This document shows positions 9,729-27,533 of a stretch of 27,986 nt of DNA, one piece after another. The stretch comes from a virus, in the IMG/VR virus record IMGVR_UViG_3300032246_001112, positions 1 through 27,986 of that record; one strand, 5' to 3'. The position numbers and the translations under genes are program-made. A model generated the notes under the pieces. It did no database searches. It was not told the DNA's origin and saw nothing but the letters and a program-made list of their open reading frames with translations. How positions within the stretch are numbered: position 1 is the stretch's first letter; every line of letters begins with the position of its first letter.

Positions 9729-9744
9729 TGGTATAATTTTCTCA
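9729..9744 (+). promoter_or_regulatory. Extended -10 promoter, leaderless-type start
   Basis: TGG at 9729-9731 followed by TATAAT at 9732-9737, then six bases (TTTCTC), then the ATG at 9744. A -10 box at this distance puts the transcription start on the A of the start codon. No Shine-Dalgarno sequence is present. A second TATAAT overlaps the previous stop codon at 9724-9729. Confidence 0.6.
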
Positions 9745-10187
9745 TGGCAAAAATCCCTCTCCCTGACCGTGGTCAGCCTCTTGATGTTACCTATATTTAT
9801 CAAATTGCAGATGCAATTAATCAGGTATCAAATGAAGTATCATCTGCAACATATAACTATACAACTGTTTCTACAAGAGATGCTGGAGATCAGATAATTC
9901 AAACAAGAGCAGCAAAAATTCTTGCTGGCTATATAGACATTACTAATAACGAATCTGTAACGGCGGGAACAACAAAACCATTTACATTTTCTTATAATGC
10001 AGACTTCAAGTACCCACCAATTGCTACCGCAACCGTAGTAAACCGTGGTACATCAGATATCGGTGATGACGTTACAGTAGTCATTAGATCAATTACTACT
10101 TCAAGAATTGAAGGAATTGTTAAGTTTAATTCTGCTGGACAGGTTACAACTACCGTAAATATTACGGCTATAGGCATCCCTACATGA
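9744..10187 (+). CDS. Putative virion protein, lectin-like beta C-terminal domain
   Basis: 147 aa, read from its own extended -10 promoter and probably leaderless. Residues ~1-40 are helical (LDVTYIYQIADAINQVSNEV) and could trimerise. The C-terminal ~90 residues are beta-rich (FTFSYNADFKYPPIATATVV, then IVKFNSAGQVTTTVN) and recall the short H-type-lectin-like domains at the ends of some phage fibres; that resemblance is weak. A separate promoter at the end of a structural operon suggests higher or differently timed expression, as for an abundant decoration or fibre protein. Function is otherwise unknown. Confidence 0.5.
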   Translation: MAKIPLPDRGQPLDVTYIYQIADAINQVSNEVSSATYNYTTVSTRDAGDQIIQTRAAKILAGYIDITNNESVTAGTTKPFTFSYNADFKYPPIATATVVNRGTSDIGDDVTVVIRSITTSRIEGIVKFNSAGQVTTTVNITAIGIPT

Positions 10188-10202
10188 TATAATTTCGCAC
10201 TA
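10185..10202 (+). promoter_or_regulatory. Extended -10 promoter, near-leaderless start
   Basis: TGA at 10185-10187 (also the stop codon of the previous gene) followed by TATAAT at 10188-10193, then eight bases without ribosome-site character, then ATG at 10202. The expected transcript has 0-2 leader bases. Confidence 0.6.
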
Positions 10203-10393
10203 TGATAAAATGCCCAAAATGTAAAGGAAGAATGTTCCTTGATCGTGCATTTTCAGAAGATAATCATATGGAAACATTTTGTATAAGATGTGGCAATAGA
10301 AAGTTTTATCACAATTTTAGTAAAACAGATGGAGAGTCTGCATGGTTGTGGCAAATGGAAAAAATGAGAATGAAACACTCAATCTGCCAGTAA
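10202..10393 (+). CDS. Small zinc-ribbon protein, putative regulator
   Basis: 63 aa with two CxxC knuckles, C4-x2-C7 and C27-x2-C30, spaced as in a zinc ribbon. The C-terminal 30 residues are basic and helical. It is read from a leaderless-type promoter and overlaps the following helix-turn-helix gene by 52 bases in another frame, so the two are co-transcribed. Small zinc ribbons of this kind are common in phage genomes next to regulatory genes and may bind DNA or RNA polymerase. No specific target can be named. Confidence 0.6.
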   Translation: MIKCPKCKGRMFLDRAFSEDNHMETFCIRCGNRKFYHNFSKTDGESAWLWQMEKMRMKHSICQ

Positions 10394-10884
10394 TTCAAAG
10401 ACCAAGAAGAAAGACTTGGTTTCTTGATGGAGACTTAGTTAGAATAACTCATATTAGCCGTGCATCTGGAATGGTAGTTTTATATAATTGCACCAAAGAT
10501 TGTAATATGACAATTACTATGGTAGAATTTAAAAGGAAGCGGAAGCGTGCTTACACAGTTATGGAAACCGCCAAACTTCTAAATTACCATAGGAAGAGTA
10601 TACCGAGATTAGTAAAACAAGGTTTTCTCCCCTCACCCGTAGGCGAACTCCCTGGTGGAGAAACCGCCTTTCATCACCTAAGTTACTACAGCGAGGACCA
10701 TATATGGGAGGCCAGAAACCTAATGGCTCAAACTCATCAGGGCAGAGCAAGAAAAGACGGACTAATAACGAACAATAAAACTCCAACAGAGCAGGAGTTA
10801 AGATATGCTATGGGGGACGGAATGCTCTATTATGTTAAAGATGAAAATGGAAGATTCATTCCAGTATTTTCTGAAACGGTATAA
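10342..10884 (+). CDS. Helix-turn-helix DNA-binding protein
   Basis: 180 aa. GGAGAG at 10331-10336 sits five bases before ATG, which supports this start. Residues ~73-100 (YTVMETAKLLNYHRKSIPRL) form an excisionase/MerR-like winged helix-turn-helix, preceded by a Lys/Arg-rich stretch. The C-terminal part contains RYAMGDGMLYYV and ends GRFIPVFSETV, features I recall from a widespread phage HTH family. It sits immediately before the promoter of the replication operon, whose spacer carries a palindrome, so it is the obvious candidate regulator; that link is inference. The middle of the gene (about 10520-10800) uses many C- or G-ending codons (CCC, CTC, GGC, TAC, GAG), unlike its neighbours. Confidence 0.65.
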   Translation: MVVANGKNENETLNLPVIQRPRRKTWFLDGDLVRITHISRASGMVVLYNCTKDCNMTITMVEFKRKRKRAYTVMETAKLLNYHRKSIPRLVKQGFLPSPVGELPGGETAFHHLSYYSEDHIWEARNLMAQTHQGRARKDGLITNNKTPTEQELRYAMGDGMLYYVKDENGRFIPVFSETV

Positions 10885-10888
10885 GGTA

Positions 10889-10918
10889 TTGACAAACCCG
10901 TACCAATAATGGTACCCT
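10889..10918 (+). promoter_or_regulatory. Replication-operon promoter (TTGACA, N18, TACCCT)
   Basis: A perfect -35 TTGACA lies at 10889-10894, then 18 bases, then TACCCT (TANNNT type) at 10913-10918 with TGG directly before it as an extended -10. The predicted start near 10925 leaves a leader of about 23 bases that contains AGAAAGGA before the GTG at 10948. It sits just after the HTH gene, at the border between tail and replication modules. Confidence 0.65.
10900..10915 (+). repeat. Perfect inverted repeat overlapping the promoter spacer and -10
   Basis: GTACCA (10900-10905), ATAA, TGGTAC (10910-10915) is a perfect 6-bp palindrome with a 4-base centre. It lies between -35 and -10 and covers the first three bases of the -10, where a bound dimer would block RNA polymerase. 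A candidate operator. Confidence 0.55.
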
Positions 10919-10947
10919 TATGACAACGACTACAGAAAGGACTCCTC

Positions 10948-11145
10948 GTGGAGCCAACAAAAATTCAATGGTCACTTGGTTACACCCTTAATACTGGAAA
11001 CTTCCAGTCATTGCGTTTAGATTGCCAAGTAACAGATTACAAGAAAGAAGATGAGAGTGCTAAGGAAGCATCTGATCGCGTTTATAAGTTTGTAGAAAAC
11101 CAACTCATTGAAAAGTTAAAGGAAGCAAAGGAAGAGTTATCATGA
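10948..11145 (+). CDS. Small conserved-type phage protein of unknown function
   Basis: 65 aa with a GTG start, chosen because AGAAAGGA lies 6 bases upstream and the reading frame begins there. The first half is beta-like (IQWSLGYTLNTGNFQSLRLD) and the second is an acidic/basic amphipathic helix. It is the first gene after the replication promoter and ends in an ATGA overlap with the next gene. Proteins of this general shape are frequent at the head of early operons in phages, but I can assign no role. Confidence 0.55.
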   Translation: MEPTKIQWSLGYTLNTGNFQSLRLDCQVTDYKKEDESAKEASDRVYKFVENQLIEKLKEAKEELS

Positions 11146-11372
11146 AGGCACTTCGTCTAAAGTTAACAAAGCAAAATGTTGCCCCTACATATGAAGCAAT
11201 TAATGAGAATCCTCGTATATTTGTAGCGTATGGTGAAACACCAGCACAAGTTCTTATTAATATGTCAAGTATTTTTGACAAGAATAATATTGATTGGTGG
11301 AGTTCGGCAACTGTTCAGGTATCACAATTTGATGATGATGATTATAAGTTTTATATGGTAGTGTATGTCTGA
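11142..11372 (+). CDS. Small hypothetical early protein
   Basis: 76 aa, starting inside the previous stop (ATGA) and overlapping the next gene by 8 bases, so clearly part of the same operon. It has alternating hydrophobic strands at both ends (ALRLKLT at the N-terminus, KFYMVVYV at the C-terminus) and an acidic FDDDDY patch. No domain, signal peptide or membrane helix is recognised. Confidence 0.5.
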   Translation: MKALRLKLTKQNVAPTYEAINENPRIFVAYGETPAQVLINMSSIFDKNNIDWWSSATVQVSQFDDDDYKFYMVVYV

Positions 11373-11682
11373 TCGTAAGAACAGGTTTGCCCTAATAGGT
11401 AGATTTGAAAAAAGATGCAAAGAGAATAGTATTCCATTGCCAATGCTAAATAAGCATAAAGAGCAGTGGGCGGCAGATGATCTTTTAGAATCTTTTGATG
11501 ATATAGATTTACATGAAGCGATGGACTATTACTTTTCTATAAATAATCGTCCTACATGGAAGGGCTATTGCACTAATGTGGAGCGTCTGATATTATCTCT
11601 TAGATCAAAAAGAGAAGATCAGGTATTTAGACAAGAAATGCGTCAGAAAGCAAAGGAGTGGTTAAGTGAATCTAGAGGCTAA
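11365..11682 (+). CDS. Putative helicase-loader-position protein
   Basis: 105 aa, mostly helical, with central aromatic motif YYFSINNRPTWKGYC and a charged C-terminal helix ending KAKEWLSE. It overlaps the DnaB-like helicase gene by 17 bases. In many phages a small helical protein directly upstream of the replicative helicase is its loader, or the matching replication accessory factor. That is the only basis for the role here. No ATPase motif is present, so it would not be a DnaC-type AAA+ loader. Confidence 0.5.
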   Translation: MSDRKNRFALIGRFEKRCKENSIPLPMLNKHKEQWAADDLLESFDDIDLHEAMDYYFSINNRPTWKGYCTNVERLILSLRSKREDQVFRQEMRQKAKEWLSESRG

Positions 11683-12877
11683 GGTTTTATCTGCTGCAAT
11701 AAATGATAAGCAAATCCATGTTTTGTTGCAGGCAAATGTAGATACACTATTGAGAACCCATAATGATATCTGGCAGTTTATGCGAGATTATTATGAGCAA
11801 AATCAAATTGCTCCCCCAGTAGATATTATTAAGGAAAAGTTTAATGATTTTGAATACTATGCTGATACTGGTGCAACAAAGTATCACCTTGATCAACTAA
11901 GATCGGATTTCTTAAATGACAACATTAAGATTATGTTGCGTTCTGCTGCAAATCAGGTGCAAGAGGATAAGGCTTCAGACGCACTCAACATTCTTATATC
12001 TGAAACGGCAAATCTCAAGCGCATCACTTCCACAGTACGAGATCTTGACGTATCAGATGTGGATGATGCGGTTGCGTATTTTGAAAACATTAAGAGACTA
12101 CAAGAAAGTGGAACGCATGGCATCTATACAGGACTCGCAGGATTTGATAATTACCTCCCAGCGGGTATCACGCCTGGGCAGTTGGGGGTACTTTTGGCTT
12201 ACCCTGCTATTGGTAAGTCTTGGATGGCTCTTTACCTCGCTGTTCAGGCTTGGAAGAATGGAAAGTCGCCGCTCATCGTATCCTTGGAAATGACTGAGGC
12301 AGAAGTAAGAAATCGCGTATTTACTATTATTGGTCAAGGAATATGGAGTCATAGAAAACTATCCAAGGGTGAAGTAGAAATGGATATGTTTAAGAAGTGG
12401 ATGGGTAAGACATTTGATGGAAAGCCAAGCATCCATATCATTTCTAATGATGGAATGGGAGAAGTATCTCCAAGTATTTTGCGTGGAAAGATTGATCAAT
12501 ATAAACCAGACATTGTTTTTGTTGATTACCTAAATCTTATGACTAGCAATTATCGTACTGATAATGAGGTTGTTAAGATGAAGAATCTTTCTCGTGAACT
12601 TAAACTACTTGCAATTTCAGAAGAGATTCCTATTGTCGCTATTTCTTCTGCAACACCAGATGATATTACAGATATGAATAGTGTTCCTACACTTGGTCAG
12701 ACCTCTTGGTCACGCCAGATTGCGTATGATGCTGACTGGCTTCTAGCCCTTGGTCGTGCTGCTAATAGCGATGTTCTTGAGGCGGTATTTAGAAAGAATA
12801 GAAATGGTTTTCTTGGAGAATTTGTTGTTCAGGTAGATTTTGACTCAGGTCGGTTTGTTTACAAGGACTTTGAATAA
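11666..12877 (+). CDS. dnaB: DnaB-like replicative DNA helicase
   Basis: 403 aa with a GTG start, AAGGAG at 11651-11656. Residues ~1-130 match the helical DnaB N-terminal region. The RecA-like ATPase domain begins near 155 with a fold like GFDNYLPAGITPGQLG. Walker A is AYPAIGKS at 178-185 (compare ARPSMGKT in E. coli DnaB), and Walker B is DIVFVDYLNLM with D287. A Q-S-R-type segment (WSRQIAYDADWLLAL) near 350 resembles the later DnaB motifs. The protein would unwind DNA 5' to 3' as a hexamer at the phage fork. It is shorter than the ~470-aa bacterial enzyme. The primase and polymerase in the same operon support the assignment. Confidence 0.88.
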   Translation: MNLEAKVLSAAINDKQIHVLLQANVDTLLRTHNDIWQFMRDYYEQNQIAPPVDIIKEKFNDFEYYADTGATKYHLDQLRSDFLNDNIKIMLRSAANQVQEDKASDALNILISETANLKRITSTVRDLDVSDVDDAVAYFENIKRLQESGTHGIYTGLAGFDNYLPAGITPGQLGVLLAYPAIGKSWMALYLAVQAWKNGKSPLIVSLEMTEAEVRNRVFTIIGQGIWSHRKLSKGEVEMDMFKKWMGKTFDGKPSIHIISNDGMGEVSPSILRGKIDQYKPDIVFVDYLNLMTSNYRTDNEVVKMKNLSRELKLLAISEEIPIVAISSATPDDITDMNSVPTLGQTSWSRQIAYDADWLLALGRAANSDVLEAVFRKNRNGFLGEFVVQVDFDSGRFVYKDFE

Positions 12878-12896
12878 ACAAAATAAGATAAGCCTG

Positions 12897-12909
12897 TATA
12901 ATTAAGGCA
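12897..12909 (+). promoter_or_regulatory. TATAAT box at leaderless distance
   Basis: TATAAT at 12897-12902, six bases, then ATG at 12909, the same spacing as at 9732. The preceding TG directly abuts the box rather than being one base away. The only Shine-Dalgarno-like bases (AAGG, 12904-12907) lie one base from the ATG, too close to work normally. This is an internal promoter in the replication module. Confidence 0.5.
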
Positions 12910-13232
12910 TGAACTTCATGCATAAAAGAATAAAAAGATTTTGTTTAGATGGTCAAATTACTGATGATCTTTTTATACCACGCATGAAACAAGAATATAT
13001 AAGACTACTTTCTGAATCTATGAGAGTTGATGGATATGTTATTAGACTTGACATAGAACCAGATTGGTCAATATCATATACTGGAAATCATTATAACTTT
13101 ATATTAAGCGTATACGGATCATATATTGGAAAGAAGAATGCTTTATGTATAATCGGTTTGGACAAGAACAGACCTATATATACTCCCCCGAACAAGTCAG
13201 AAGAGTTGTCACAGGTTCAGGAGTCAATGTAG
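12909..13232 (+). CDS. Hypothetical phage protein upstream of primase
   Basis: 107 aa from an ATG six bases after a TATAAT box. The basic N-terminus (HKRIKRF) is followed by a beta-like middle section (DGYVIRLDIEPDWSISYTGN, then YNFILSVYGSYIG). The last 88 bases also encode the start of the primase in another frame. The middle section reads like a real folded domain, which is why I keep it rather than treat it as a shadow. Function unknown; association with priming is suggested only by position. Confidence 0.5.
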   Translation: MNFMHKRIKRFCLDGQITDDLFIPRMKQEYIRLLSESMRVDGYVIRLDIEPDWSISYTGNHYNFILSVYGSYIGKKNALCIIGLDKNRPIYTPPNKSEELSQVQESM

Positions 13233-14089
13233 TAAATGAAGTACCAGATGGTTGGATAGTTTTCTGTCCTTTTCATAATAATTATAGAACTCCGTCTGGT
13301 GAAATAGATAAGGTTCGCGGAGTATTCAACTGCTTTTCTTGTGGTACATCGGTAAGTCTCATTAATTTTGTTATTAAGTTAACTAATAAGACATACTTTG
13401 AGGCTACTAGATTTATTGATCAGTATGAAGTAGAGACTAATATTTTTGATAATATTTCAGAATCTTTAGAAGAAAAGCAAGAATATGAAATATTTGATGA
13501 GTTTACAATTAAAAGACTTAATAAGCAGGCTCTAGAATCTTCTAGAGCAGCATCATATTTTGAAGGAAGAAAAATCACTAGGTCTTCAATGGAAAAGTTT
13601 TCCTTAGGATATAGTGAAAAAAGAGATATGATTACTATTCCAGTACAAACTCCAGACGGATCTTCATATGTTGGATTTGTAGGAAGAAGTATTGAAGGCA
13701 AAGATTTTAAGAATACACCTGGGCTTCCAAAATCTAAGGTTTTATTTAATCTTCATCGTGCAAAAATATATAGTGAAGTATATGTTGTTGAGTCGTCTTT
13801 TGATGCAATTAGATTAGATCAGTGTGGAATATCTGCGGTAGCAACATTAGGGTCAAAAGTATCAAAAACACAAACAGACCTCTTGACAAAATATTTCAAT
13901 TCTGTTATAGTTATTCCCGATAATGACGATGCTGGAAAAGAAATGGTAAAAAAGATAATTGACGCTGTTGGCAATAGAGCGGCATCAATTGGTATACCTC
14001 AAAGATTTAAAGATATTGGAGACATGACAGATTCCGATATTTATAAAATGATAGAAATTGTAAAAGATCCACTATTAGCAATGTATTAA
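13145..14089 (+). CDS. dnaG: DnaG-type DNA primase
   Basis: 314 aa. It carries a CHC2-type zinc-binding site: C41-x2-H44 (CPFH) and C63-x2-C66 (CFSC). The Toprim catalytic core shows VVESSFDAI with E216 and PDNDDAGK with D259, D261 and D262. It would make RNA primers for lagging-strand synthesis together with the DnaB-like helicase. It is about half the length of bacterial DnaG and lacks the C-terminal helicase-binding domain, as usual in compact phage primases. The start overlaps the previous gene by 88 bases; GGAAAG at 13129-13134 is the plausible ribosome site. A perfect 8-bp inverted repeat lies inside the gene. Confidence 0.85.
   Translation: MYNRFGQEQTYIYSPEQVRRVVTGSGVNVVNEVPDGWIVFCPFHNNYRTPSGEIDKVRGVFNCFSCGTSVSLINFVIKLTNKTYFEATRFIDQYEVETNIFDNISESLEEKQEYEIFDEFTIKRLNKQALESSRAASYFEGRKITRSSMEKFSLGYSEKRDMITIPVQTPDGSSYVGFVGRSIEGKDFKNTPGLPKSKVLFNLHRAKIYSEVYVVESSFDAIRLDQCGISAVATLGSKVSKTQTDLLTKYFNSVIVIPDNDDAGKEMVKKIIDAVGNRAASIGIPQRFKDIGDMTDSDIYKMIEIVKDPLLAMY
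13529..13548 (+). repeat. Perfect hairpin-forming inverted repeat inside primase gene
   Basis: GCTCTAGA (13529-13536), loop ATCT, TCTAGAGC (13541-13548). The stem is eight perfect pairs with a four-base loop and encodes Ala-Leu-Glu-Ser-Ser-Arg-Ala in the primase. It contains CTAG twice. It may be coincidental or an mRNA structure. Confidence 0.45.
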
Positions 14090-14113
14090 TTAAAATATAA
14101 GGAGAGTATTATT

Positions 14114-14773
14114 ATGAGTATTATGAAGGGTCTAAAGGAAATGGGAAAGGCACTTGATCGTCCTTCCGCTTCTTCAGAGGCAGGCTCAAAGGTTCGTTGG
14201 CTAAAGTTAGATGATGCACAAAGTGTCAAGGTTCGCTTTGTCAATGAACTTGATGAAGATTCACCCAACTACGATCAGTCAAGAGATCTTGCTATTGTAG
14301 TATCAGAACACACGAATCCAAAGGATTACAAGCGTAAGGCAGTTTGCACAATTGATTCTGAGGGCCGCTGCTTTGGATGTGAGATGGCTCGTAAGGAGCC
14401 TAAGGGTGGCTGGCGTGCTCGCTACCGCTTCTATACTAACCTGCTTGTAGATGATGGACTAGAAGATCCATATGTAGCAGTTTGGTCGCAGGGTGTAGGA
14501 AAGAACTCTTCCTTTAACACTCTAAAGGAATATGCAATTGAAACTGGTTCCATTAGCAATCGTATTTGGCGCATGAAGCGTCAGGGTAGTGGAATTGATA
14601 CAACTTACATTCTTCTTCCTGGAGATCCAGATAAGGATAAGTTTGATTGGAAGGATGTTGAGCCTTACAATCTAGAAAAGGTTGTTCGTGAAGTTCCATA
14701 TGCAGAACAGGAATCATTCTATCTTGGATTTGATTCTCCATCTTCTACAGATACAAAGAATCTAGACTGGTAG
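14114..14773 (+). CDS. Putative gp32-like single-stranded-DNA-binding protein
   Basis: 219 aa with AAGGAGA at 14099-14105, eight bases before ATG. A cysteine cluster (C-x7-C-x2-C near residues 77-90, in RCFGCEM) may bind zinc, and KVRFVNELDEDSPNYD precedes it. The C-terminus is mixed Ser/Asp/Thr and mildly acidic. The arrangement recalls T4 gp32-type SSBs with a zinc-containing core, and the place between primase and polymerase fits. It would coat ssDNA at the fork and assist RecA. Codon use is unlike the tail genes: 0 of its 8 isoleucines are ATA, and CGT/CGC arginine codons are common, which suggests high expression. A strong hairpin follows. The family call is moderate; no OB-fold motif can be proved by eye. 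Confidence 0.6.
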   Translation: MSIMKGLKEMGKALDRPSASSEAGSKVRWLKLDDAQSVKVRFVNELDEDSPNYDQSRDLAIVVSEHTNPKDYKRKAVCTIDSEGRCFGCEMARKEPKGGWRARYRFYTNLLVDDGLEDPYVAVWSQGVGKNSSFNTLKEYAIETGSISNRIWRMKRQGSGIDTTYILLPGDPDKDKFDWKDVEPYNLEKVVREVPYAEQESFYLGFDSPSSTDTKNLDW

Positions 14774-14780
14774 TTTTGAT

Positions 14781-14820
14781 AGCGGGGGGATGGGATCATA
14801 ACCATCCCCTCGCTCTATTT
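14781..14820 (+). terminator. Strong hairpin, probable transcription terminator or attenuator
   Basis: A 13-bp stem, 14781-14793 with 14802-14814, perfect except for one G-U pair, with an 8-base loop (GATCATAA). It is very GC-rich in an AT-rich genome. It is followed by CTATTT, a weak U tract. It begins eight bases after the SSB stop codon and ends 16 bases before the next ATG, so it could lower downstream transcription or protect the 3' end of the SSB mRNA. Confidence 0.7.
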
Positions 14821-14830
14821 AGAAGGAAAA

Positions 14831-15553
14831 ATGCCAAACATATATTTTGAAGAATTGTTTAGTGAATTAGGTTGTCCAAAGCCTACTCCAGCAGTCAATG
14901 CTATTCCAAAATGGTTTAAAGAAATGGATCGTTTTTATGGTAAAGATGATCGTGCTAGTATTCATGCTAGAGAAAATGGAACAATTCGTGATTGCCCAGC
15001 AGTAAATGACGCTTTATTTTCTGGATATACTCTTTATCTTCCAGCAGATATTTTTATAGATACAACAGGTACAGAAATAGAGTATGATATTGGTCATTTT
15101 GGAAAAGGCTCAAGAATAGAAGACGCTAATTTTAATTTTATTGAAATGCACAGTAAGTCATCAACAAAAGGATACAATACTTTATTTGATGTTCATGAGC
15201 AAACAATGAAGTGGCAAACTTACTGGGGAGTAAGAACAGATGAAGGATATAGTACATTGTTCATTCATCCAATACATAGAACAGATTTGCCATTTCATAT
15301 GGTTACTGCTATAGTTGATACAGATAAATTTGGTACTCGTGAACCTTATGGATTTTTCATAAAAAAGGGATTTAAAGGAATTATTCATCGTGGAACGCCA
15401 ATGCTTCAGGTCTTTCCTTTTAAAAGAGAAGAATGGAAAATGGAAATTGTTGAGCCAGATGGAAAAGATTATATTAGAAATAAACAGATGATATCAAGCG
15501 TATTTAACCAACCATACAAAAAGTTATTTTGGCAAAGAAAGAAGTATTCTTAA
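14831..15553 (+). CDS. DUF6065-like phage protein (copy 1)
   Basis: 240 aa, start supported by GAAGGAA just upstream. An N-terminal region with AIPKWFKEM is followed by IRDCPAVNDALFSGY, a beta-rich middle, and YSTLFIHPIHRTDLPF plus GIIHRGTPMLQVFPFKRE toward the C-terminus. The pattern (a CPA motif, an H-P motif, then a G-x-P-x-x-Q-x-x-P-F segment) matches what I recall of the DUF6065 family in phages, whose role is unknown. A second, diverged copy lies at 23465-24184. The gene ends in TAATG shared with the DNA polymerase start, so it is translated with the replisome. Confidence 0.5.
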   Translation: MPNIYFEELFSELGCPKPTPAVNAIPKWFKEMDRFYGKDDRASIHARENGTIRDCPAVNDALFSGYTLYLPADIFIDTTGTEIEYDIGHFGKGSRIEDANFNFIEMHSKSSTKGYNTLFDVHEQTMKWQTYWGVRTDEGYSTLFIHPIHRTDLPFHMVTAIVDTDKFGTREPYGFFIKKGFKGIIHRGTPMLQVFPFKREEWKMEIVEPDGKDYIRNKQMISSVFNQPYKKLFWQRKKYS

Positions 15554-18500: not shown

Positions 18501-18822
18501 ATCTAACAGAATTGTGGAAGCAGTTCCTATTGACCAACTACAAGAAAGCAAGTCTCCACTTGTCAGATTTTTAAATTACAAACAACTTCCATATAGCCAA
18601 GATGAGCATTATGTGCTATCCTTTAGACCTCGCATTACCAAGGCGGGTAAGAGAATGGCTAGCCTAGTTGTGGCTGATAGCGGAAGAGAACTTATGTCTA
18701 TGATTGTATTTCCATCGACATTTGCAATGGCATATACCCGAATCGAAGAGGGGAATGCATACAAAATTAATTATAGTATCTCAAAGGATGAGGACTTAGT
18801 GTTTCAGGAGGTAGTAGCATGA
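15553..18822 (+). CDS. dnaE: DNA polymerase III alpha subunit (DnaE type) with PHP domain
   Basis: 1089 aa from the ATG in the TAATG overlap; a TTG at 15529 is a weaker start. The PHP domain keeps its metal ligands: H8 and H10 (HVHTHYS), D17, H42 (ITDHGT), E67 (GVEGY), a Cys in SSACMSG and the D/H pair of TPDCHH. The polymerase core has VGPGRGSSAGS at 377-387, catalytic D422 and D424 in FPDVDSDIQD, and the third Asp D567 in IDALGLKTL. A helix-hairpin-helix region follows, then an OB-fold near 934-975 (YILMGVIRSIKRGKGW). It is the replicative polymerase of this phage. Because the PHP site looks intact and I see no separate epsilon exonuclease, proofreading may come from the PHP domain; that is inference. 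Slightly shorter than the 1160-aa E. coli protein. Confidence 0.93.
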   Translation: MHNYVPLHVHTHYSQMDGVATPEEYVGRAKENGMDAIAITDHGTLSGHRPMYRAAKVGGIKPILGVEGYIAADRFDKRDKSERTTPLDLVYNHIVILAKNDKGLENLGRLNEISWNEGFYRKPRIDFEVLEKYREGLIVSSACMSGLINKAIEVDDYAVAKAHLKWFGDRFGEDFYVEVMPHNTAGMNKALIELADAAGHKIIVTPDCHHATVDQKVIQEIMLINNTHAKFEKDVNYDKSRKIEDPLKRLDYLYGQDRMMSFNKFDIHLLSGDEMHRAMGEDSRQDMFANTLEVANKIEDYTISRNLNLLPVEHKDPDAQIRKYAESWLKTNNLHTNQEYVDRLNEELEIIKQKKFASYFIVVQNMLNWAKKNDIMVGPGRGSSAGSLVCYALGITEIDPIKYGLLFFRFIDIDRDDFPDVDSDIQDSRREEVKEYLERQYKHVASIATFLQFKDKGVVRDVARCFNVPLADVNRALKTVDTWEEYIKSKNTQWFREKYPEVELYGDQLRGRIRGTGVHAAGVVTSKLPISRVAPMETRNVTGSDTRLPVVAIDMEEAADIGLIKIDALGLKTLTVINDTLNIIEERTGKRPDLSNVDLEDENIYSMLSNGHTKGVFQCEAAPYTSLLVKMGVNKFDELVASNALVRPGAMNTIGKEYIARKQGRQGIVYPSPIMKDFTEDTYGTILYQEQVMLACVRLGGMTMGEANKVRKIIGKKKDAREFDEFKELFVRNATGPLGGAAAEKMWHDFEAHAGYSFNKSHAVAYSTVSFWTAWLKYYYPLEFIFALLKNEKDKDARTEYLIEAKRMGIPMRLPHINDSDIDFKIEGKGIRFGLGSIKFISDKIADRYISARPFSSFAAVQEFTFTKGNGVNSRALESMRSVGALTFPDNPRNDAEIKENMYEYLNLPEFNIQVPQHYHAYISSVDDFDERGAYILMGVIRSIKRGKGWSRVEILDGTGSVGVFDEEETSIEAGRTYIVLVGSNRIVEAVPIDQLQESKSPLVRFLNYKQLPYSQDEHYVLSFRPRITKAGKRMASLVVADSGRELMSMIVFPSTFAMAYTRIEEGNAYKINYSISKDEDLVFQEVVA

Positions 18823-19172
18823 AAACAATCAATTTAGATGCAACAGCAAAGGTTCTTCACGATACCGCTGTGGAAAAGGGATTCTGGGAGCCAAATAATG
18901 AAGATACGCATGTTATCTTTTATCTCAAGCAGATTGCAATGATTCATTCAGAAGCAAGCGAGACTCTTGAGGCAATTCGTAAAGAGCAGGGAGGACAAAA
19001 GATTGTAGAAGAAATGGCTGACATTATTATTCGTGTACTTGATCTTTATTGGGGTATGCGTAATGATCATGCCATTACTCAAGGATATGCAATTCCATCT
19101 CTTCACGATACTCTTGAGGCAAAAGCAAAGATTAATCAAGAGCGCCCAAGAATGCATGGGGTATTGGCGTGA
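18819..19172 (+). CDS. MazG-like nucleoside triphosphate pyrophosphohydrolase
   Basis: 117 aa, ATGA overlap with dnaE and a consensus AGGAGG at 18806-18811. The MazG metal-binding pattern is present: E45-x2-E48 (SEASE) and E65-x2-D68 (EEMAD), followed by a helix and KAKINQERPRMHG, typical of the C-terminal end of this fold. Such enzymes hydrolyse (d)NTPs to the monophosphate and pyrophosphate. In phages they are thought to clean nucleotide pools or lower ppGpp. Placement between polymerase and RecA fits a nucleotide-pool role. Confidence 0.8.
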   Translation: MKTINLDATAKVLHDTAVEKGFWEPNNEDTHVIFYLKQIAMIHSEASETLEAIRKEQGGQKIVEEMADIIIRVLDLYWGMRNDHAITQGYAIPSLHDTLEAKAKINQERPRMHGVLA

Positions 19173-20185
19173 CCAACATTGATGAAATTCTTGCTCAACT
19201 AAATCCAAAGTTACGCAAGAAGATCTCTCTTGGATCTGAAATGGCCCAAACAGAATTTGCCAAGACTCCAAGTTTTGGATTAAATAGGGCACTGAATGGA
19301 GGATTTCCATATGGTCGTCAAGTATTAGTATGGGGAAATAAGTCTTCTGGAAAATCCTCATTTTGCTTACAGTTAATTGCTGATGCTCAAAAGGAGGGCA
19401 AAGTATGTGCATGGGTAGACGCAGAGATGACATTCTCCCCAGAATGGGCTACACACTTAGGCGTAGACACCGAAAAGTTGATTGTCTCTACAGCACGAAC
19501 AATGAACGATATGGTGGATGTTGGTACAGATCTCATGAAGGCTGGAGTAGATTTAATTGTTGTAGATAGTATTTCAGCATTGCTCCCAGCAATTTACTTT
19601 GAAAAAGATTCTACAGATTTAAAGCAACTAGAAAATACTAAGCAAATTGGTGCAGAAGCAAGAGATATGACTAATGCAGTAAAAATGCTTAACTATGCAA
19701 ATAATCAAGAGAAGCCAACACTTCTTGTACTTATTAGTCAGGCTAGAAATAATATTGGACAGATGTATACTCAGCAACAACCAACTGGTGGCATGGCGGT
19801 GAAGTTTTATTCATCCACTATCGTTAAACTGTTTTCATCTGAATCAGAAAATCAAGCCATCAAGGGAAAGATTTATGTTGGAGATAAAATAATTGAAGAA
19901 AAAATTGGAAGGAAGGTTCGTTGGGATGTACAATTTTCAAAAACTAGTCCAGCGTTTCAAACAGGAGAATATGACTTCTACTTTAGGGGATCAGACCTTG
20001 GAGTGGATTCAATTGCAGACCTCGTTGATACAGCAGAAATACTTGGCTTCATTGATCGCGGTGGAGCATGGTATACAGTTGAAGGTGAAAGATATCAAGG
20101 AAGAGAAAAGTTGATTCTTGGTATAAAAGAAAATCTTGATATTCAGGAACTACTAATTAAAAAGGTAAACAATGAACAAGTTTAG
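19169..20185 (+). CDS. recA: RecA-like recombinase
   Basis: 338 aa with a GTG start in a GTGA overlap with the MazG-like gene. Walker A is GNKSSGKSS at 56-64 and Walker B is LIVVD at 129-133. An L2-like segment, QPTGGMAVKFYSS, corresponds to the GG-x-A-L-K-F-Y-(A/S)-S region of RecA. A short C-terminal domain with a winged or lid-like section (VDTAEILGFIDRGGAWY) follows, as in RecA. It would form filaments on ssDNA and promote strand exchange for recombination-dependent replication or repair. It is close to the usual RecA length (about 350) and nearer to RecA than to T4 UvsX by the L2 motif. Confidence 0.85.
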   Translation: MTNIDEILAQLNPKLRKKISLGSEMAQTEFAKTPSFGLNRALNGGFPYGRQVLVWGNKSSGKSSFCLQLIADAQKEGKVCAWVDAEMTFSPEWATHLGVDTEKLIVSTARTMNDMVDVGTDLMKAGVDLIVVDSISALLPAIYFEKDSTDLKQLENTKQIGAEARDMTNAVKMLNYANNQEKPTLLVLISQARNNIGQMYTQQQPTGGMAVKFYSSTIVKLFSSESENQAIKGKIYVGDKIIEEKIGRKVRWDVQFSKTSPAFQTGEYDFYFRGSDLGVDSIADLVDTAEILGFIDRGGAWYTVEGERYQGREKLILGIKENLDIQELLIKKVNNEQV

Positions 20186-20327
20186 TGTTTATGATGGTAT
20201 CTTTACTTGTCACAAGTGTAAAAAAAATGTGCCAAAAGCCCGTTTCTGGAAAGACACCTTTGACTTTACTTGGATGTGTGATTGTAAATATATATCCAAA
20301 GTAAATCTTTATGGCAGAGGATATTAA
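20172..20327 (+). CDS. 51-aa zinc-binding miniprotein
   Basis: ATG at 20172 inside the end of recA, stop TAA at 20325-20327 shared with the next ATG (TAATG). It has C13-x2-C16 (CHKC) and C36-x1-C38 (CDC), a possible zinc site, with the strong aromatic segment ARFWKDTFDFTW between them and KVNLYGRGY at the end. The coupling on both sides and the cysteine pattern argue it is translated. Similar tiny CxxC proteins occur beside recombination genes in other phages. Function unknown. Confidence 0.6.
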   Translation: MNKFSVYDGIFTCHKCKKNVPKARFWKDTFDFTWMCDCKYISKVNLYGRGY

Positions 20328-20623
20328 TGACTGAGCGTGGAGAAGCAAAAAGAATTGACGCAAAGTTGCAAAAGAATAGTGGCAGAGGAAGAATTCAAAA
20401 AGGAGATGCAACATGGAACAACTATGTTCTTGACTTTAAAGAATTTTCTAAATCATTTAGTATTACTCAAGATGTATGGGCAAAAATTGTTACTGATACA
20501 TTAAAGGTAGATAGAAAAAAGTCTCCAGCAATATGCTTGATATTAGATGGAAAGACGAGACTTGCTATAATTGAGTGGTCAGAATTCGAAAGATTGGTTG
20601 ACAATGACACAGACAACGCTTGA
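20327..20623 (+). CDS. PD-(D/E)XK Holliday-junction-resolvase-like protein
   Basis: 98 aa. A small nuclease fold is suggested by a basic Gly/Arg loop (SGRGRIQKGD) with D27, then a strand carrying D36-x-K38 (LDFKEFSKSF), then helix VWAKIVTDTL and strand PAICLILD. This spacing matches compact PD-(D/E)XK enzymes of the Hjc / phage resolvase type. In this family the D and (D/E)xK residues bind the metal for cleavage of branched DNA. It sits directly downstream of RecA, which supports a recombination role. The alternative is a general DNA-repair endonuclease. Confidence 0.6.
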   Translation: MTERGEAKRIDAKLQKNSGRGRIQKGDATWNNYVLDFKEFSKSFSITQDVWAKIVTDTLKVDRKKSPAICLILDGKTRLAIIEWSEFERLVDNDTDNA

Positions 20624-20906
20624 GCAAGTAAGTGATTTATACGAAATTGCTGAATACATGAATGATCCAGAACTTACGGTAGCCCTTGAATTTATAGCCA
20701 AGGTAATCTTTAAGCCAGACGTTCCTGTTCAGGTTGTTACGGTAGAATTGGTACGCTTGCAAGCAATTGCAGCAAAACTATCAATGAAGGCCACATGGAT
20801 GGCTAATGTTGATAAAACAGACAGAGCAAAAAAGAATCTATACTACACTGCGGCGGCTGAGATTGATAAGGTTTGCTCATCATTGAAGTATCTAACAAAG
20901 GGATAA
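20604..20906 (+). CDS. Hypothetical helical protein in recombination operon
   Basis: 100 aa from ATG 20604, preferred over an upstream GTG at 20571 because it limits the overlap to 20 bases; neither has a strong ribosome site. Mostly helical, with AAKLSMKATWMANVDKTDRA followed by a YYTAAAEIDKVC helix. No catalytic motif or membrane segment is seen. Located between the resolvase-like gene and the Cas4-like nuclease, it may be an accessory of either. Role unknown. Confidence 0.5.
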   Translation: MTQTTLEQVSDLYEIAEYMNDPELTVALEFIAKVIFKPDVPVQVVTVELVRLQAIAAKLSMKATWMANVDKTDRAKKNLYYTAAAEIDKVCSSLKYLTKG

Positions 20907-20908
20907 TA

Positions 20909-21676
20909 ATGGCTAAAAACTTTTTAAAGCAAATACTAGACAAGCAACCAGACGGCGCTATTGATACTAAGGCTTTTATTGAAAAGATTGAATCTGGATA
21001 TCTTGTAGGAAGAGAGCCACAGTTTAAGACTAAGAAAACATTTAGTCCATCAGCACTTGTATATGGTAATGGAGCCTGCCCACGTTATTGGTTCCTAGCA
21101 TTTTCTGGTACAGAATTTGTTGATGATGCAGATGCATATGCCGTAGCAAACATGGGTAGTGGCACACAGGCCCATGAACGCATTCAGGAGGCCATTGAAA
21201 AGGCTGGCATCATGGTAGAGAAAGAAAAGCGTATTGTCGCTCAGGACCCTCCTATCTTTGGTTTTGCCGATGCAGTTGTTCAATGGGGAGAAGATCAGCC
21301 CGTTGTAGAAATAAAAACTATGCGTGAAGAATCATTTGCTTATCGTAAACATGCAAAACCACCCTCATACCATCTTATGCAATTAGTTATTTATATGAAG
21401 GTTTTGGGTAAGCGTCTAGGAATCCTTCTTTATGAGAATAAGAATTCACATGAACTTCATGCTATTACAGTAGAGCCAAATCCAGAACTTATTGCTTGGG
21501 GAGACTATGCATTTAATTGGATGCGTACTGTTCGTAAGCAATGGGAAAGCAACGACATTCCCAAGAAGCCTTATCGCTCTAACTCTAAAGTTTGCAGTGG
21601 ATGCCCAATTAAAGATGCCTGTGCAAAGGCTGATAAGGGTACTGTTAAAATTGAACCCTTGGAGCATCTTGAATGA
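20909..21676 (+). CDS. Cas4/RecB-like PD-(D/E)XK exonuclease with iron-sulfur cysteines
   Basis: 255 aa from ATG 20909, with AAGGGA shortly upstream. The nuclease motifs are H89 (QAHE), D121 (GFADAV) and E134-x-K136 (VEIKT), then QLVIYM. Four cysteines, C57 and C229-x2-C232-x5-C238 (CSGCPIKDAC), form the Cas4/AddB-type 4Fe-4S cluster pattern. Members of this family resect DNA ends, and phages often carry free-standing ones without any CRISPR locus. None is present here, so a role with RecA and the resolvases in making 3' tails is the likely one. Start and stop overlap neighbours tightly. Confidence 0.75.
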   Translation: MAKNFLKQILDKQPDGAIDTKAFIEKIESGYLVGREPQFKTKKTFSPSALVYGNGACPRYWFLAFSGTEFVDDADAYAVANMGSGTQAHERIQEAIEKAGIMVEKEKRIVAQDPPIFGFADAVVQWGEDQPVVEIKTMREESFAYRKHAKPPSYHLMQLVIYMKVLGKRLGILLYENKNSHELHAITVEPNPELIAWGDYAFNWMRTVRKQWESNDIPKKPYRSNSKVCSGCPIKDACAKADKGTVKIEPLEHLE

Positions 21677-21969
21677 AAATTTGTGACTGGTGTTCTAACG
21701 AATTCCAGCCTAATGTAAGTTATCAAATTTACTGCTCTACGGAGTGTAGAGAATTTGCTACCAAAGAAAAAGTTGCTGAAAAATATAATGTAAAGCGTCT
21801 ACAAAGATTATCTAAAAAAGAACGCAGATGTTCGGGTGGATGTGGAACAGTCGTAAGCATATATAATTCAACTGGATTTTGTAGTGTCTGCATGATAGAT
21901 TCTAGGCAAGTAGACAAAGCATTAAAAGAACTTAAGGGACTAATAGAATATGAAAGACTTGATGAGTAG
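21673..21969 (+). CDS. Multi-cysteine zinc-finger protein
   Basis: 98 aa, ATGA overlap with the nuclease gene. It has three cysteine knuckles: C4-x2-C7 (CDWC) with C21-x3-C25 (CSTEC), then C53-x3-C57 (CSGGC), then C70-x2-C73 (CSVC). These could bind two zinc ions. The C-terminus is a charged helix (DKALKELKGLIEYE). Small proteins of this pattern beside Cas4-like nucleases and RuvC-like resolvases are familiar in phage genomes. I infer nucleic-acid binding. It overlaps the next gene by 20 bases. Confidence 0.6.
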   Translation: MKICDWCSNEFQPNVSYQIYCSTECREFATKEKVAEKYNVKRLQRLSKKERRCSGGCGTVVSIYNSTGFCSVCMIDSRQVDKALKELKGLIEYERLDE

Positions 21970-22516
21970 ACCATCATCTTTTTGTGCAATTGATGCAAGT
22001 ACAAATAGTCTTGCTTTTGCATATTTTAAAAATGATAATTTAGAAAAATATGGGAAAATAAAATTTTTTGGTAATGACATATATGAAAAAATTGCGGATA
22101 CAACACATAAAACTCAAGCATTTTTTAAACAGTTTAATTCGCTTGAACACATCATTATTGAGCAACCAATTTATCTTAACTCGCCAAAAACAGCAGCAAA
22201 TTTATCTATGAGTCATGGTGCTCTTGTTGGATCAGCATCTTTGGCTGGAGCAAGAAGAATGGCTAGTGTAAGTCCAATGCAATGGCAAAATTGGATTGGC
22301 AATAAAAAACTTACAAATGAAGAAAAAGATAAAATAAAACAGCAGTTTCCAGATAAATCTGCTACTTGGTATAAAGGAAAAGAAAGAGAATTTAGAAAAC
22401 AAAGAACAATTAAATTTGTAAATAATAAATTTAATATTCATGTAAGTGATGATGACGTTGCTGATGCCATTGCTATTGGAGCATGGGCACTTGACAATTG
22501 GGGAAAGGTGTTCTAG
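21950..22516 (+). CDS. RuvC-like Holliday junction resolvase
   Basis: 188 aa. RNase-H-fold acidic residues are in RuvC order: D15 (CAIDAST), E71 (IIIEQPIY), and D169 with D172 (SDDDVADAIAIGAW). The length is close to RuvC (about 173). The fold would cleave four-way junctions, removing branches before packaging. A second, unrelated resolvase-type fold is encoded at 20327-20623, so the phage may use the two on different substrates. A later in-frame ATG at 21962 is possible, but the first lies closer to the operon spacing. Confidence 0.75.
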   Translation: MKDLMSRPSSFCAIDASTNSLAFAYFKNDNLEKYGKIKFFGNDIYEKIADTTHKTQAFFKQFNSLEHIIIEQPIYLNSPKTAANLSMSHGALVGSASLAGARRMASVSPMQWQNWIGNKKLTNEEKDKIKQQFPDKSATWYKGKEREFRKQRTIKFVNNKFNIHVSDDDVADAIAIGAWALDNWGKVF

Positions 22517-22517
22517 A

Positions 22518-22823
22518 ATGAATAGTATGAATAAGTATAAATATATGCAGTGGTTTATTGCTTTAGAAACAATGTTTCACAGGCAGTACTGGAATAAACC
22601 AAATACAGTTGAGTTTCTTGCATTTATTACGAAGGCTTTAATTATCATTCCAGGTCTTCTATTTGATACACAAATTTGGTGGATTTATATAATTGCTCTA
22701 GTAACAAGTATTTCATTAATTTGGTCATCAACAGTAAAAACACTCCCAACTCTTATTTGGTTTAATTTTATTTGGACTGGTTTGGCTCTTGCCGCTATTA
22801 TCAAGCACTTTATTGGATGGTAA
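22518..22823 (+). CDS. Small membrane protein, three predicted TM helices
   Basis: 101 aa from ATG 22518, with GGAAAGG at 22502-22508 nine bases upstream. The basic/aromatic N-terminus (KYKYMQWF) is followed by hydrophobic stretches at ~32-48, ~52-71 and ~77-98. A short cytoplasmic or exposed loop carries Lys/Thr. It could be a holin-like pore, but it lies in the recombination block far from the endolysin, so another membrane role (for example superinfection exclusion) is equally possible. No family assigned. Confidence 0.55.
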   Translation: MNSMNKYKYMQWFIALETMFHRQYWNKPNTVEFLAFITKALIIIPGLLFDTQIWWIYIIALVTSISLIWSSTVKTLPTLIWFNFIWTGLALAAIIKHFIGW

Positions 22824-22826
22824 AAT

Positions 22827-22976
22827 ATGGCTAAGAATGCGGGTCTTCATCATAATGAAGCATATTTAAGAAAGCGTTTATATTTAGATAAAAAGACTCC
22901 AGAACAAATTGCAGTTGAATGTGGCGTAAGTCTACAAATTATTTATCGTCAAATGAAAAAGTTTGGATTAAAATGA
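22827..22976 (+). CDS. 49-aa helix-turn-helix miniprotein
   Basis: ATG at 22827 three bases after the previous stop; the stop TGA shares bases with the next ATG (ATGA). Residues ~13-47 (LRKRLYLDKKTPEQIAVECG, then a recognition helix VSLQIIYRQMKKFG) form a compact homeodomain-like HTH. Such isolated HTH units are common phage accessory regulators or DNA-binding partners. It was too short for ordinary ORF cut-offs. Confidence 0.6.
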   Translation: MAKNAGLHHNEAYLRKRLYLDKKTPEQIAVECGVSLQIIYRQMKKFGLK

Positions 22977-23209
22977 AAGATATGGTTAATCATCCCGCAC
23001 ACTATACGAGTGATCCTAGCGGGGTAGAATGTATTCAAATCGTTCGTCATCGCAATTACAATATTGGCAATGCCATTAAATATCTTTGGCGAGCGGGAAT
23101 TAAAAATGAAGATAAGCATATTGAAGATTTAAAGAAAGCAATATTCTATATCTCTGATGAGATAAAAAGACTAGAGGGCAAATATGAGTCGTCGCAAAAA
23201 GATAACTAG
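22973..23209 (+). CDS. DUF3310 protein (T7 gp1.7 nucleotide-kinase-like domain)
   Basis: 78 aa. The start at 22973 is chosen by the ATGA overlap; upstream in-frame starts would read through the HTH gene. The sequence VNHPAHYTSDPSGVECIQIV, then NIGNAIKYLWRAGIKNEDKH, then EDLKKAIFYI matches the DUF3310 pattern (HPxHY, GxE, KYxWRxGxK, DLKKAxxY). In T7 the protein with this domain (gp1.7) has thymidylate/nucleotide kinase activity. A nucleotide-metabolism role fits the MazG-like enzyme in the same operon. Confidence 0.75.
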   Translation: MKDMVNHPAHYTSDPSGVECIQIVRHRNYNIGNAIKYLWRAGIKNEDKHIEDLKKAIFYISDEIKRLEGKYESSQKDN

Positions 23210-23465
23210 TCCTAATTCAAATATTTATAGTAGAGCACCATACTATAAACTTCCAGATGGAAAGATGTTGGAAAGTGGAGACACGATTAAAATTGCTGGA
23301 GAAAGGGGCACACATTTTAAGTTTATTGAGCATGTAATAAAATTAGACTCTGGTGTAGAGTGGATTGATTGTTTCCAGATTGATCGCGGAGTTATGTGTG
23401 GATGGAGATCATTTAAGCCAGAAAGAATTAAGGTTATTCCTAAGAAAAGAAACAAGATGAAGTAA
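23184..23465 (+). CDS. Basic SH3-like hypothetical protein
   Basis: 93 aa, 26-base overlap with the DUF3310 gene. Very basic ends (SRRKK and KKRNKMK) flank a beta-rich core: SGDTIKIAGERGTHFKFI, then GVEWIDCFQID, then GWRSFKPERIKVI. The pattern resembles small SH3-like or KOW-like barrels that bind nucleic acids; that comparison is by eye only. It ends one base into the start of the next gene. Confidence 0.5.
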   Translation: MSRRKKITSPNSNIYSRAPYYKLPDGKMLESGDTIKIAGERGTHFKFIEHVIKLDSGVEWIDCFQIDRGVMCGWRSFKPERIKVIPKKRNKMK

Positions 23466-24184
23466 TGAGTAAAGATCTAGTTATTTATTGGTCAAATGTT
23501 CCAGATAATGATGTTGACTGGTCAATTATCTTTGAAGAACCAAAAAGTCTTCTACATGAATTATCTTTAAATAAAAATAAAAACAATCAAGAAAATAATT
23601 TATTGCGATGCCCAGCGGTAACTGATTTATGTAAAAATCTATTTGTTATTAAAAATCCTCTTTATACAAAAGCATCATTCATTATAAAAAATAATATGGT
23701 TTCTAATGAAATGAAGTCTGATGATGGCAAGTGGTTGGTTAATAGACCGCCAAGTTTTAATAATCAATTGCTTGCAATGTATATTCATCCAATAATATTT
23801 TTTGCTGAAGAAGATGTAGAAATTATGCTTACAAATCCATATTTCTCAAATATTCAGCATAGCAGTTGGGGTGCTATTGTTCCAGGTATATTTAATTGTG
23901 GTTCTTGGTTTAGACCAGTTCAAATGGAATTCAATGTCTGGGAAAACATAAAAGAAGTTGAATTATTAGAAAATGAACATATTGCTTATATAAAGTTTTT
24001 TACAGAAAAGCGTGTTGTTTTAAAAAGATTTACCATGAATGAAGATCTTATGAATCAAGCAAAAATTTGTAGCGGAGCAGGAAAATGGGAGCCAAAAGTT
24101 CCATTAATTAAAAGATATTTAAGATTTAAAAATTCAAAAAGAGATAAATTTATATTAAGTAAAATTAAAGAAAACATTGTGTGA
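23465..24184 (+). CDS. DUF6065-like phage protein (copy 2)
   Basis: 239 aa, almost the same length as the 14831-15553 protein, with equivalent landmarks in the same order: LLRCPAVTDLCKNLF (copy 1: IRDCPAVNDALFSGY), LLAMYIHPIIFFAEED (copy 1: STLFIHPIHRTDLPF), and a C-terminal basic region. Overall identity looks low, so this is a diverged paralogue or a separately acquired relative. It is the last gene before the lysis promoter. Role unknown. Confidence 0.5.
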   Translation: MSKDLVIYWSNVPDNDVDWSIIFEEPKSLLHELSLNKNKNNQENNLLRCPAVTDLCKNLFVIKNPLYTKASFIIKNNMVSNEMKSDDGKWLVNRPPSFNNQLLAMYIHPIIFFAEEDVEIMLTNPYFSNIQHSSWGAIVPGIFNCGSWFRPVQMEFNVWENIKEVELLENEHIAYIKFFTEKRVVLKRFTMNEDLMNQAKICSGAGKWEPKVPLIKRYLRFKNSKRDKFILSKIKENIV

Positions 24185-24218
24185 ACTTTATCACATTATT
24201 GTTTTCCCCATAAAAATA

Positions 24219-24247
24219 TTTACTACATACAAAAAGTATGTTAGTCT
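24219..24247 (+). promoter_or_regulatory. Endolysin promoter (TTTACT, N17, TAGTCT)
   Basis: -35 TTTACT at 24219-24224, spacer of exactly 17 bases, -10 TAGTCT (TANNNT type) at 24242-24247. Start near 24254 gives a ~26-base leader with the perfect ribosome site AAGGAGG at 24267-24273, six bases before ATG. It is one of only a few real intergenic gaps (95 bases) in the window. Confidence 0.6.
24225..24241 (+). repeat. Palindrome filling the promoter spacer
   Basis: ACATAC, AAAAA, GTATGT: a perfect 6-bp inverted repeat whose two ends coincide with the ends of the 17-base spacer between -35 and -10. Its position makes it a strong operator candidate. An A5 centre would also bend the spacer. Confidence 0.55.
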
Positions 24248-24279
24248 AGAACAATGTTGTCGCCGCAAGGAGGAAACAA

Positions 24280-24822
24280 ATGACGAAAACGAAACTGGTA
24301 GGAGGTATTATGGTGATGGTGTTGATGCTAAGTGGATCAACTGCTGTTGCCGCTACCAACGAACAGGTGTATGCTAAGTCAAATGCACCTATTGCGACGG
24401 AGGCTTTATCAAAGTCTGTCGTAAACGAAGCAAGGGCTAAGATAAAGCCAAACAGTACCTGTAAAAACTGGCTAGTAAAAGAATTAAAGAATGCTGGTTT
24501 TAAGGGTAGAGGATTGAGAATCGCATGGTCTATTGCCATGCGTGAAAGTGGAGGAAGGGCTAACGCTATTTCTTCCACTGGAGACTATGGAGTCTTCCAA
24601 TTCAACCGCGCAGCATGGAGTAAGGAGCCTTGGTGGAATACCGCTAAACTTCTTAACCGTGATTACAATATTATGATTGCGTATCGCATTTCCCAACATG
24701 GAAAAACATTTTATCCTTGGGATATTGACGGTGCTGGCAGATATAAGGGACTATATACTCCCAAATCTGTATATAAGAAATATAAGTCTTGGTATAACAA
24801 ATTTCCAAGTAATTGTAAATAG
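24280..24822 (+). CDS. Secreted lysozyme-like transglycosylase (endolysin)
   Basis: 180 aa with a consensus AAGGAGG ribosome site. A signal peptide is clear: KTK, hydrophobic residues ~6-18 (LVGGIMVMVLML), then AVAA with probable cleavage near 25. The mature domain has AWSIAMRESGG with catalytic E89, and STGDYGVFQFN, the SLT/lysozyme-like signature. The only two cysteines of the mature part (C61 and C179) could form a disulfide across the domain outside the cell. It would cut the glycan strands of peptidoglycan after Sec export. It therefore may not need a classical holin for transport, only for timing. It resembles Rpf/SLT enzymes in general form; exact subfamily not decided. Confidence 0.8.
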   Translation: MTKTKLVGGIMVMVLMLSGSTAVAATNEQVYAKSNAPIATEALSKSVVNEARAKIKPNSTCKNWLVKELKNAGFKGRGLRIAWSIAMRESGGRANAISSTGDYGVFQFNRAAWSKEPWWNTAKLLNRDYNIMIAYRISQHGKTFYPWDIDGAGRYKGLYTPKSVYKKYKSWYNKFPSNCK

Positions 24823-24829
24823 TTAGTGT

Positions 24830-24877
24830 GTGGGGTAGGAAACCGAATTCAACTAGGTGGCAACATTCCTACCCCAC
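24830..24877 (+). terminator. Hairpin after endolysin, probable terminator without U tract
   Basis: Perfect 12-bp stem, GTGGGGTAGGAA (24830-24841) with 24866-24877, and a 24-base loop. It starts eight bases after the endolysin stop. No T run follows; instead a TATAAT box begins seven bases later. U-less terminators are reported in actinobacteria, so termination is likely but not certain. It would separate lysis from packaging transcription. Confidence 0.55.
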
Positions 24878-24880
24878 CAC

Positions 24881-24900
24881 TGCTATAATAGGGGACACTA
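24881..24900 (+). promoter_or_regulatory. Extended -10 promoter before small terminase gene
   Basis: TGC at 24881-24883, TATAAT at 24884-24889, then ten bases and ATG at 24900. Expected leader is about 0-4 bases. AGGGG at 24890-24894 resembles a ribosome site but lies upstream of the expected transcript start, so it would serve only read-through mRNA. Confidence 0.55.
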
Positions 24901-27419: not shown

Positions 27420-27494
27420 GCGGCGGTAGCCTAGTCTGGTTTTGGCAGCGGTCTTATAAGCCGTCAATCGTGAGTTCAAATCTCACCCGCCGTA
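27420..27494 (+). tRNA. tRNA-Ile with UAU anticodon
   Basis: Cloverleaf by hand: 7-bp acceptor (27420-27426 with 27487-27493, first pair G-U), U8 A9, a three-pair D stem GCC/GGC with GG in the loop, anticodon stem 27448-27452 with 27460-27464, seven-base loop CTTATAA with U33 correct and anticodon TAT at 27455-27457, five-base variable loop, and T arm GTGAG-TTCAAAT-CTCAC (27470-27486). Discriminator is A73; CCA is not encoded. It should decode AUA isoleucine codons directly, without the lysidine needed by the usual CAU-type tRNA-Ile. Confidence 0.8.
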
Positions 27495-27506
27495 CTTATA
27501 TTAGTA

Positions 27507-27512
27507 TATAAT
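27507..27512 (+). promoter_or_regulatory. Possible -10 box before downstream gene
   Basis: TATAAT in an AT-rich stretch just after the tRNA, with start near 27519, a few bases before AAGGA at 27518-27522. No -35 or extended -10 is obvious, so this could be chance in AT-rich DNA. Confidence 0.3.
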
Positions 27513-27533
27513 TACATTAAGGATGTGATGCAA

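Follow-up and report, generated by a model that had tools for sequence, protein, structure and literature searches.

The window (the whole stretch of DNA analysed, 27,986 nucleotides, positions 1-27,986 of IMG/VR record IMGVR_UViG_3300032246_001112; GC about 35%) raises the question of whether TATAAT boxes lying directly ahead of four of its start codons are promoters fused to those starts. The original prediction placed such boxes 6, 8, 6 and 10 bases ahead of the ATGs at 9744, 10202, 12909 and 24900, three of the four carrying a TGN, and we found both statements to be correct. All four boxes and their genes are on the plus strand. The first, TGGTATAAT (9729-9737; TATAAT at 9732-9737 behind TGG), is followed after a gap of 6 bases by gene 9744-10187, whose 147 aa product has no PHROG or Pfam match and is called fibre-like from its position. 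The second, TGATATAAT (10185-10193; TATAAT at 10188-10193 behind TGA), stands 8 bases before gene 10202-10393, which encodes a zinc-ribbon-like protein of 63 aa (phrog_12850). This gene had been taken for a regulator, a role for which the next gene, 10342, with a weak helix-turn-helix match, is the likelier candidate. The third TATAAT (12897-12902) is preceded by CTG and is the one box without TGN; it lies 6 bases before gene 12909-13232 (107 aa, phrog_17515), which is upstream of the primase gene and overlaps it. The fourth, TGCTATAAT (24881-24889; TATAAT at 24884-24889 behind TGC), lies 10 bases before terS, the terminase small subunit gene (24900-25427; 175 aa, phrog_9507). On the plus strand of the window TGNTATAAT occurs five times, including three of these start-linked boxes. 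TGCTATAAT is also found at 20563-20571, within the end of gene 20327 and 32 bases before ATG 20604, with a similar layout in the related record G001; this copy is probably a leadered promoter inside a gene.

TATAAT as such was not enriched in the window (43 occurrences vs 46.7 in shuffles), so it is position, not abundance, that is non-random. A generic -35/-10 promoter scan of the window stayed at shuffle level and was uninformative. Among 35 window starts, four had TATAAT at a gap of 6-10 bases where 0.15 were expected (Poisson p 2e-5), the class having been picked after the cases had been seen. For this reason the pattern was tested on independent sequence, by the scan of related phages against shuffled sequence that had been named beforehand. 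The relatives comprised 11 viral contigs with homologues, mostly read in large part (0.79 Mb; 0.82 Mb with the window), in which we counted cases of TATAAT-N6-ATG whose ATG heads an ORF of 40 or more codons. We found 81 such sites, window included, vs 1.5 in shuffles; these take in homologous genes of related phages, near-identical contigs being merged only in the family analyses, and so do not represent 81 independent events. In the same count gaps of 7, 9 and 10 gave 17, 16 and 12 sites, and the other short gaps were near background (3 at gap 5, 8 at gap 8). When hexamers at gap 6 were ranked upstream of genes called independently of the box, by simple gene calling, TATAAT came first of all hexamers, with 56 sites vs at most 5 for permutations of its letters. 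Start codons at gap 6 were ATG (79), GTG (5) and TTG (2). The pattern TGNTATAATN6-8ATG gave strand-specific matches in 12 of 12 relatives, and the reversed pattern nearly none. In 50 kb each of T4, HTVC008M and P-SSM2 (GC 34-36%) and of Karimac (GC 49%) there were no gap-6 cases, vs about 5 per 50 kb in this phage group; HTVC008M is a pelagiphage and P-SSM2 a cyanophage. Of 743 called genes, about 103 were classed as leaderless, a figure that rests on simple gene calls in fragmentary records. In one genome (G002), genes with a box at gap 5-11 were concentrated in a region that includes tail-fibre-like genes by PHROGs (5,000-37,000, loci L201-L202), making up 13/39 genes there vs 4/57 elsewhere (Fisher 0.002).

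Of the 56 sites ahead of called genes, 95% had G at -14 and 73% had T at -15, and no -35 signal was seen. This is the profile of an extended -10, -35-less promoter, from which the window's 12909 box departs by lacking TGN. We consider it probable (about 0.88, judged from sequence evidence) that the boxes are promoters of this kind fused to start codons, giving mRNAs that would be leaderless or have leaders of 2-4 nt, with Shine-Dalgarno (SD) initiation elsewhere. The boxes would be read by a sigma factor of the vegetative type, most likely that of the host. No Sigma70_r2 domain was found in the 13 records, which points to the host's main sigma factor as the likely reader; as these records are fragmentary, a phage sigma factor may have been missed. 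RNA polymerase would begin 6-7 bases behind the box. An ATG at +1, as expected for 9744 and 12909, would then give a leaderless mRNA whose 5'-terminal AUG is engaged by the ribosome, while an ATG 2-4 bases further on, as at 10202 and 24900, would leave a leader too short for an SD site. Initiation on the A of the ATG, as originally proposed, is thus predicted for the first pair, and the second pair most likely has short leaders (about 2-3 nt for 10202; 3-4 nt for terS in this clade). Operon-internal genes, and promoter-proximal genes whose ATG is 15 or more bases from the box, would use SD sites, which in many cases would lie at the transcript's 5' end.

The distribution of SD sites is consistent with this arrangement. 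Their frequency in the leaderless class was 0.11-0.125, equal to the background of 0.10 at random ATGs. SD sites beginning at offset 6-7 behind TATAAT were found in 20/70 cases vs 31/402 behind permuted boxes (Fisher 4e-6), whereas those at offset 1-5 were rare (4/70 vs 87/402 permuted). Such a peak is expected if transcription begins 6-7 bases past the box, where the leaderless ATG sits; among the indirect lines of evidence on the position of the predicted transcript start, it is the best. Only 1% of leaderless-class genes abutted (5 nt or less) or overlapped the upstream gene, vs 36% of SD genes (Fisher 3e-15), a comparison in which the box itself needs some room and the unit-proximal position of leaderless genes follows from the definition. 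The claim that leaderless starts are reserved for first genes agrees with these figures but is right in one direction only, since boxes with SD leaders also head first genes, both in relatives and in the window. In the window example (plus strand, 27507-27523) TATAAT at 27507-27512 is followed by an SD-like AAGGA at 27519-27523, which begins 7 bases past the box, the start being 27525, 27528 or 27534. AAGGAGG at 24267, put forward as an operon-internal SD site, is real but a poor example, because gene 24280 lies 95 bases past the previous stop. The broader proposal of two initiation modes, one leaderless or nearly so behind an extended -10 and the other SD-led, is supported by the gap-6 excess and by the background level of SD sites.

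For all four genes, the box and its spacing are retained in homologues, and the intervening bases up to the ATG drift. In the 9744 family, TGGTATAATT was invariant in 30/30 distinct gap-6 sites, and the five bases ahead of the ATG were mostly variable. The box was present in all 45 distinct proteins of the family. The gap was 5-9 in 37/45 rows, 36 of them without SD and one a weak exception, and 15-18 in the other 8/45, all eight with SD; there were no gaps in between. A tree of the family, quickly made from a short alignment, needs three gap/SD changes, at least two of which are forced by well-supported branches. The TGA that stops gene 9744 also supplies the TGN of the extended -10 box ahead of 10202 (10185-10193). 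Homologues of 10202 mostly had a gap of 9, often with A[C/T]T-ATG, and the box was absent from some of them (L188-L193). This 3 nt leader class was clear in the 10202 and terS families; genome-wide, at gaps 9-10, it was not sharp.

Gene 12909 had TATAAT 6-7 bases ahead of the ATG in 9/9 loci (six distinct sites, window included), and two loci (L082, L083) keep this box although their upstream sequence is unrelated. A perfect 7+1+7 palindrome, GCATGAACTTCATGC (12907-12921), spans the 12909 start right behind the box; it is not kept in all homologues and may be due to chance. The same gene offers a case for an account in which the boxes are real promoters but the transcript starts further on, within the gene, or translation begins at a different codon, since it has a second ATG at codon 4 in the window and is matched by its PHROG profile from residue 4 onwards. 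We regard this account as improbable. Homologues L086, L089 and L090 have Leu, Ala or His at codon 4 and keep the first ATG, which identifies the first ATG as the start of 12909; in the 9744 family the conserved N-terminus MA(K/I/R) reaches back to the ATG but no further; and a different start would give no reason for exactly 6 bases between TATAAT and ATG.

The dense gene order, mostly on one strand, might instead suggest that the genes are translated from upstream read-through transcripts, TATAAT being kept for a minor RNA or as a protein-binding site. Read-through is indeed likely at 10202, where the box overlaps the upstream stop codon. As a general explanation we give it little credence, because SD sites are not above background in these genes and the exact box-ATG gap is conserved in unrelated genes. 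Chance, or a compositional artefact of an AT-rich genome, to which the low GC and the unenriched TATAAT of the window might have pointed, is refuted by the gap-6 excess over shuffles and by its absence from the AT-rich control phages.

One set of terS homologues had gaps of 7-10, and another had gaps of 16-26, nearly always with SD. The L027 and L029 genes (gap 7, no SD) are nested in the SD group beside L023 (gap 19, AAGGAG). Together with the 9744 family, this indicates that leader and SD are altered under an unchanged promoter. The statement that no usable ribosome site lies between box and ATG was not quite clean at 24900, where AGGGG is found 5 bases before the ATG. It lies in the bases just behind the box, which should stay untranscribed if the predicted transcript start is correct. 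Several homologues have GGAG inside the gap, and on this ground an SD contribution at terS may be allowed for.

Downstream of the lysozyme-like gene and ahead of the terS box we found a covarying hairpin (24825-24882, plus strand; folding z -5.0 in the window), with 11-14 pairs in most homologues. Among 24 sequences, 10 of 12 pairs were changed on both sides, and 92% of cells pair vs 36-52% in slid controls. The 3' side of the loop holds a conserved sequence, GGTGGCAACA (24856-24865 in the window; GGTAACAACA in a few homologues). The hairpin is single-copy per genome, at terS, and three records (G001, G004, G009) are without it. When Rfam covariance models were run on the window (E up to 1), a tRNA was the sole match and the hairpin was unmatched. 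A T-box-like reading of GGTGGCAACA was dropped, as the bulge is on the opposite side from that of the T-box and Rfam gave no match. The location of the hairpin suggests that it may terminate the lysozyme unit or form a structure at that unit's 3' end, though it has no U tract.

Leaderless genes at a -10 box are already known in actinobacteria, as is wide use of leaderless mRNA in phage phiYS40; the phage group studied here would be a further case of this kind. The literature used also included PMC5312081 and PMC10202952. TA-led leaderless genes are reported from bacteria, and as frequent in Actinobacteria (Zheng et al. 2011, PMC3160421). They lack an SD, are unit-proximal and have a -10-like box that begins with a T some 12 bases ahead of the start; leaderless genes are also reported for Mycobacterium tuberculosis (PMC3898074) and Deinococcus (PMC12340547). 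The present genes resemble them in the first T at -12, above chance by both the gap-6 count and the hexamer ranking, in lacking an SD signal (weakly so at 24900, with its AGGGG) and in heading units, as predicted from sequence. They differ in being phage genes and in having full TATAAT plus TGN, a form that the 2011 paper expects for low-GC genomes. For phiYS40, a phage of Thermus, a review (PMC3594737) describes the majority of middle and late mRNAs as leaderless. That phage likewise has leaderless initiation on many genes, but its host is of another phylum, its transcripts were measured and changes in IF2 and IF3 are reported, whereas here the evidence is from DNA and concerns a minority of genes. 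Leaderless phage mRNAs are also known from lambda cI and comparable cases (PMC3160421, PMC9031893), which are described as single regulators; here many structural and replication genes are concerned. The SAS/ESAS elements of cluster K mycobacteriophages (PMC3203893) share with the hairpin an inverted repeat close upstream of actinophage gene starts. By that description SAS has an SD within it and is present in many copies per genome, unlike the single-copy, terS-tied hairpin with its co-varying arms; the 13 bp SAS motif GGGATAGGAGCCC had two matches in the window at 3 mismatches, where 2.0 were expected.

The actinobacterial host hinted at by leaderless starts gained support. Of 13 records, 9 carry a WhiB gene (the 28 kb window itself has none), and the window's TerL is 54% identical to that of Streptomyces phage Karimac, its TerS 40% identical to the Karimac gene just before terminase. 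Karimac and relatives (Stanwilliamsviridae) share the order DnaE, MazG, RecA, Cas4, RuvC, TerS, TerL with a nearby tRNA-Ile(tat); the homologous TerL, TerS and gene order amount to a likeness, not to formal taxonomic membership. The window has a tRNA-Ile with anticodon TAT at 27420-27495, and Karimac likewise has one near its terminase genes. WhiB, Karimac synteny and protein identity make an actinobacterial host likely, and the phage probably infects aquatic actinobacteria. Karimac differs in its higher GC and in its terS, which overlaps the preceding gene without such a promoter. It was considered as a cultured witness and set aside: at 49% GC TATAAT is too scarce, and TANNNT had no clear peak. 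Since Karimac, whose host is known, has no gap-6 TATAAT in the 50 kb scanned, the exact form is seen in no cultured relative. A search for the host through RecA in genome contigs gave four matches. The close ones belong to MAGs that bear cyanobacterium and Flavobacteriia labels; they are probably phage contigs binned along, and no host information came from them.

A likely consequence of promoter-fused starts is translational gating, by which a leaderless gene would depend on its own promoter for most of its translation, with little coming from read-through RNA. We tentatively suggest, at somewhat less than even odds, that the fixed module TGNTATAAT-N6-start serves as an expression cassette that is compact and portable, with a concentration of copies in the tail-fibre region in one genome or more, and that small indels repeatedly switch the leader of one and the same gene between 0, 2-4 and 9-15 nt, the last with SD at or near the 5' end, and leave the promoter untouched. 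If this is true, leaderless genes would be shielded from translation on read-through RNA. Start codons can, on the reading preferred here, be fused to promoters genome-wide in uncultured, apparently common aquatic actinophages, and such starts would help gene-start annotation and host assignment from sequence alone. Orthologues with the same promoter but a different leader and SD would serve as natural matched pairs on the gains or costs of leaderless translation.
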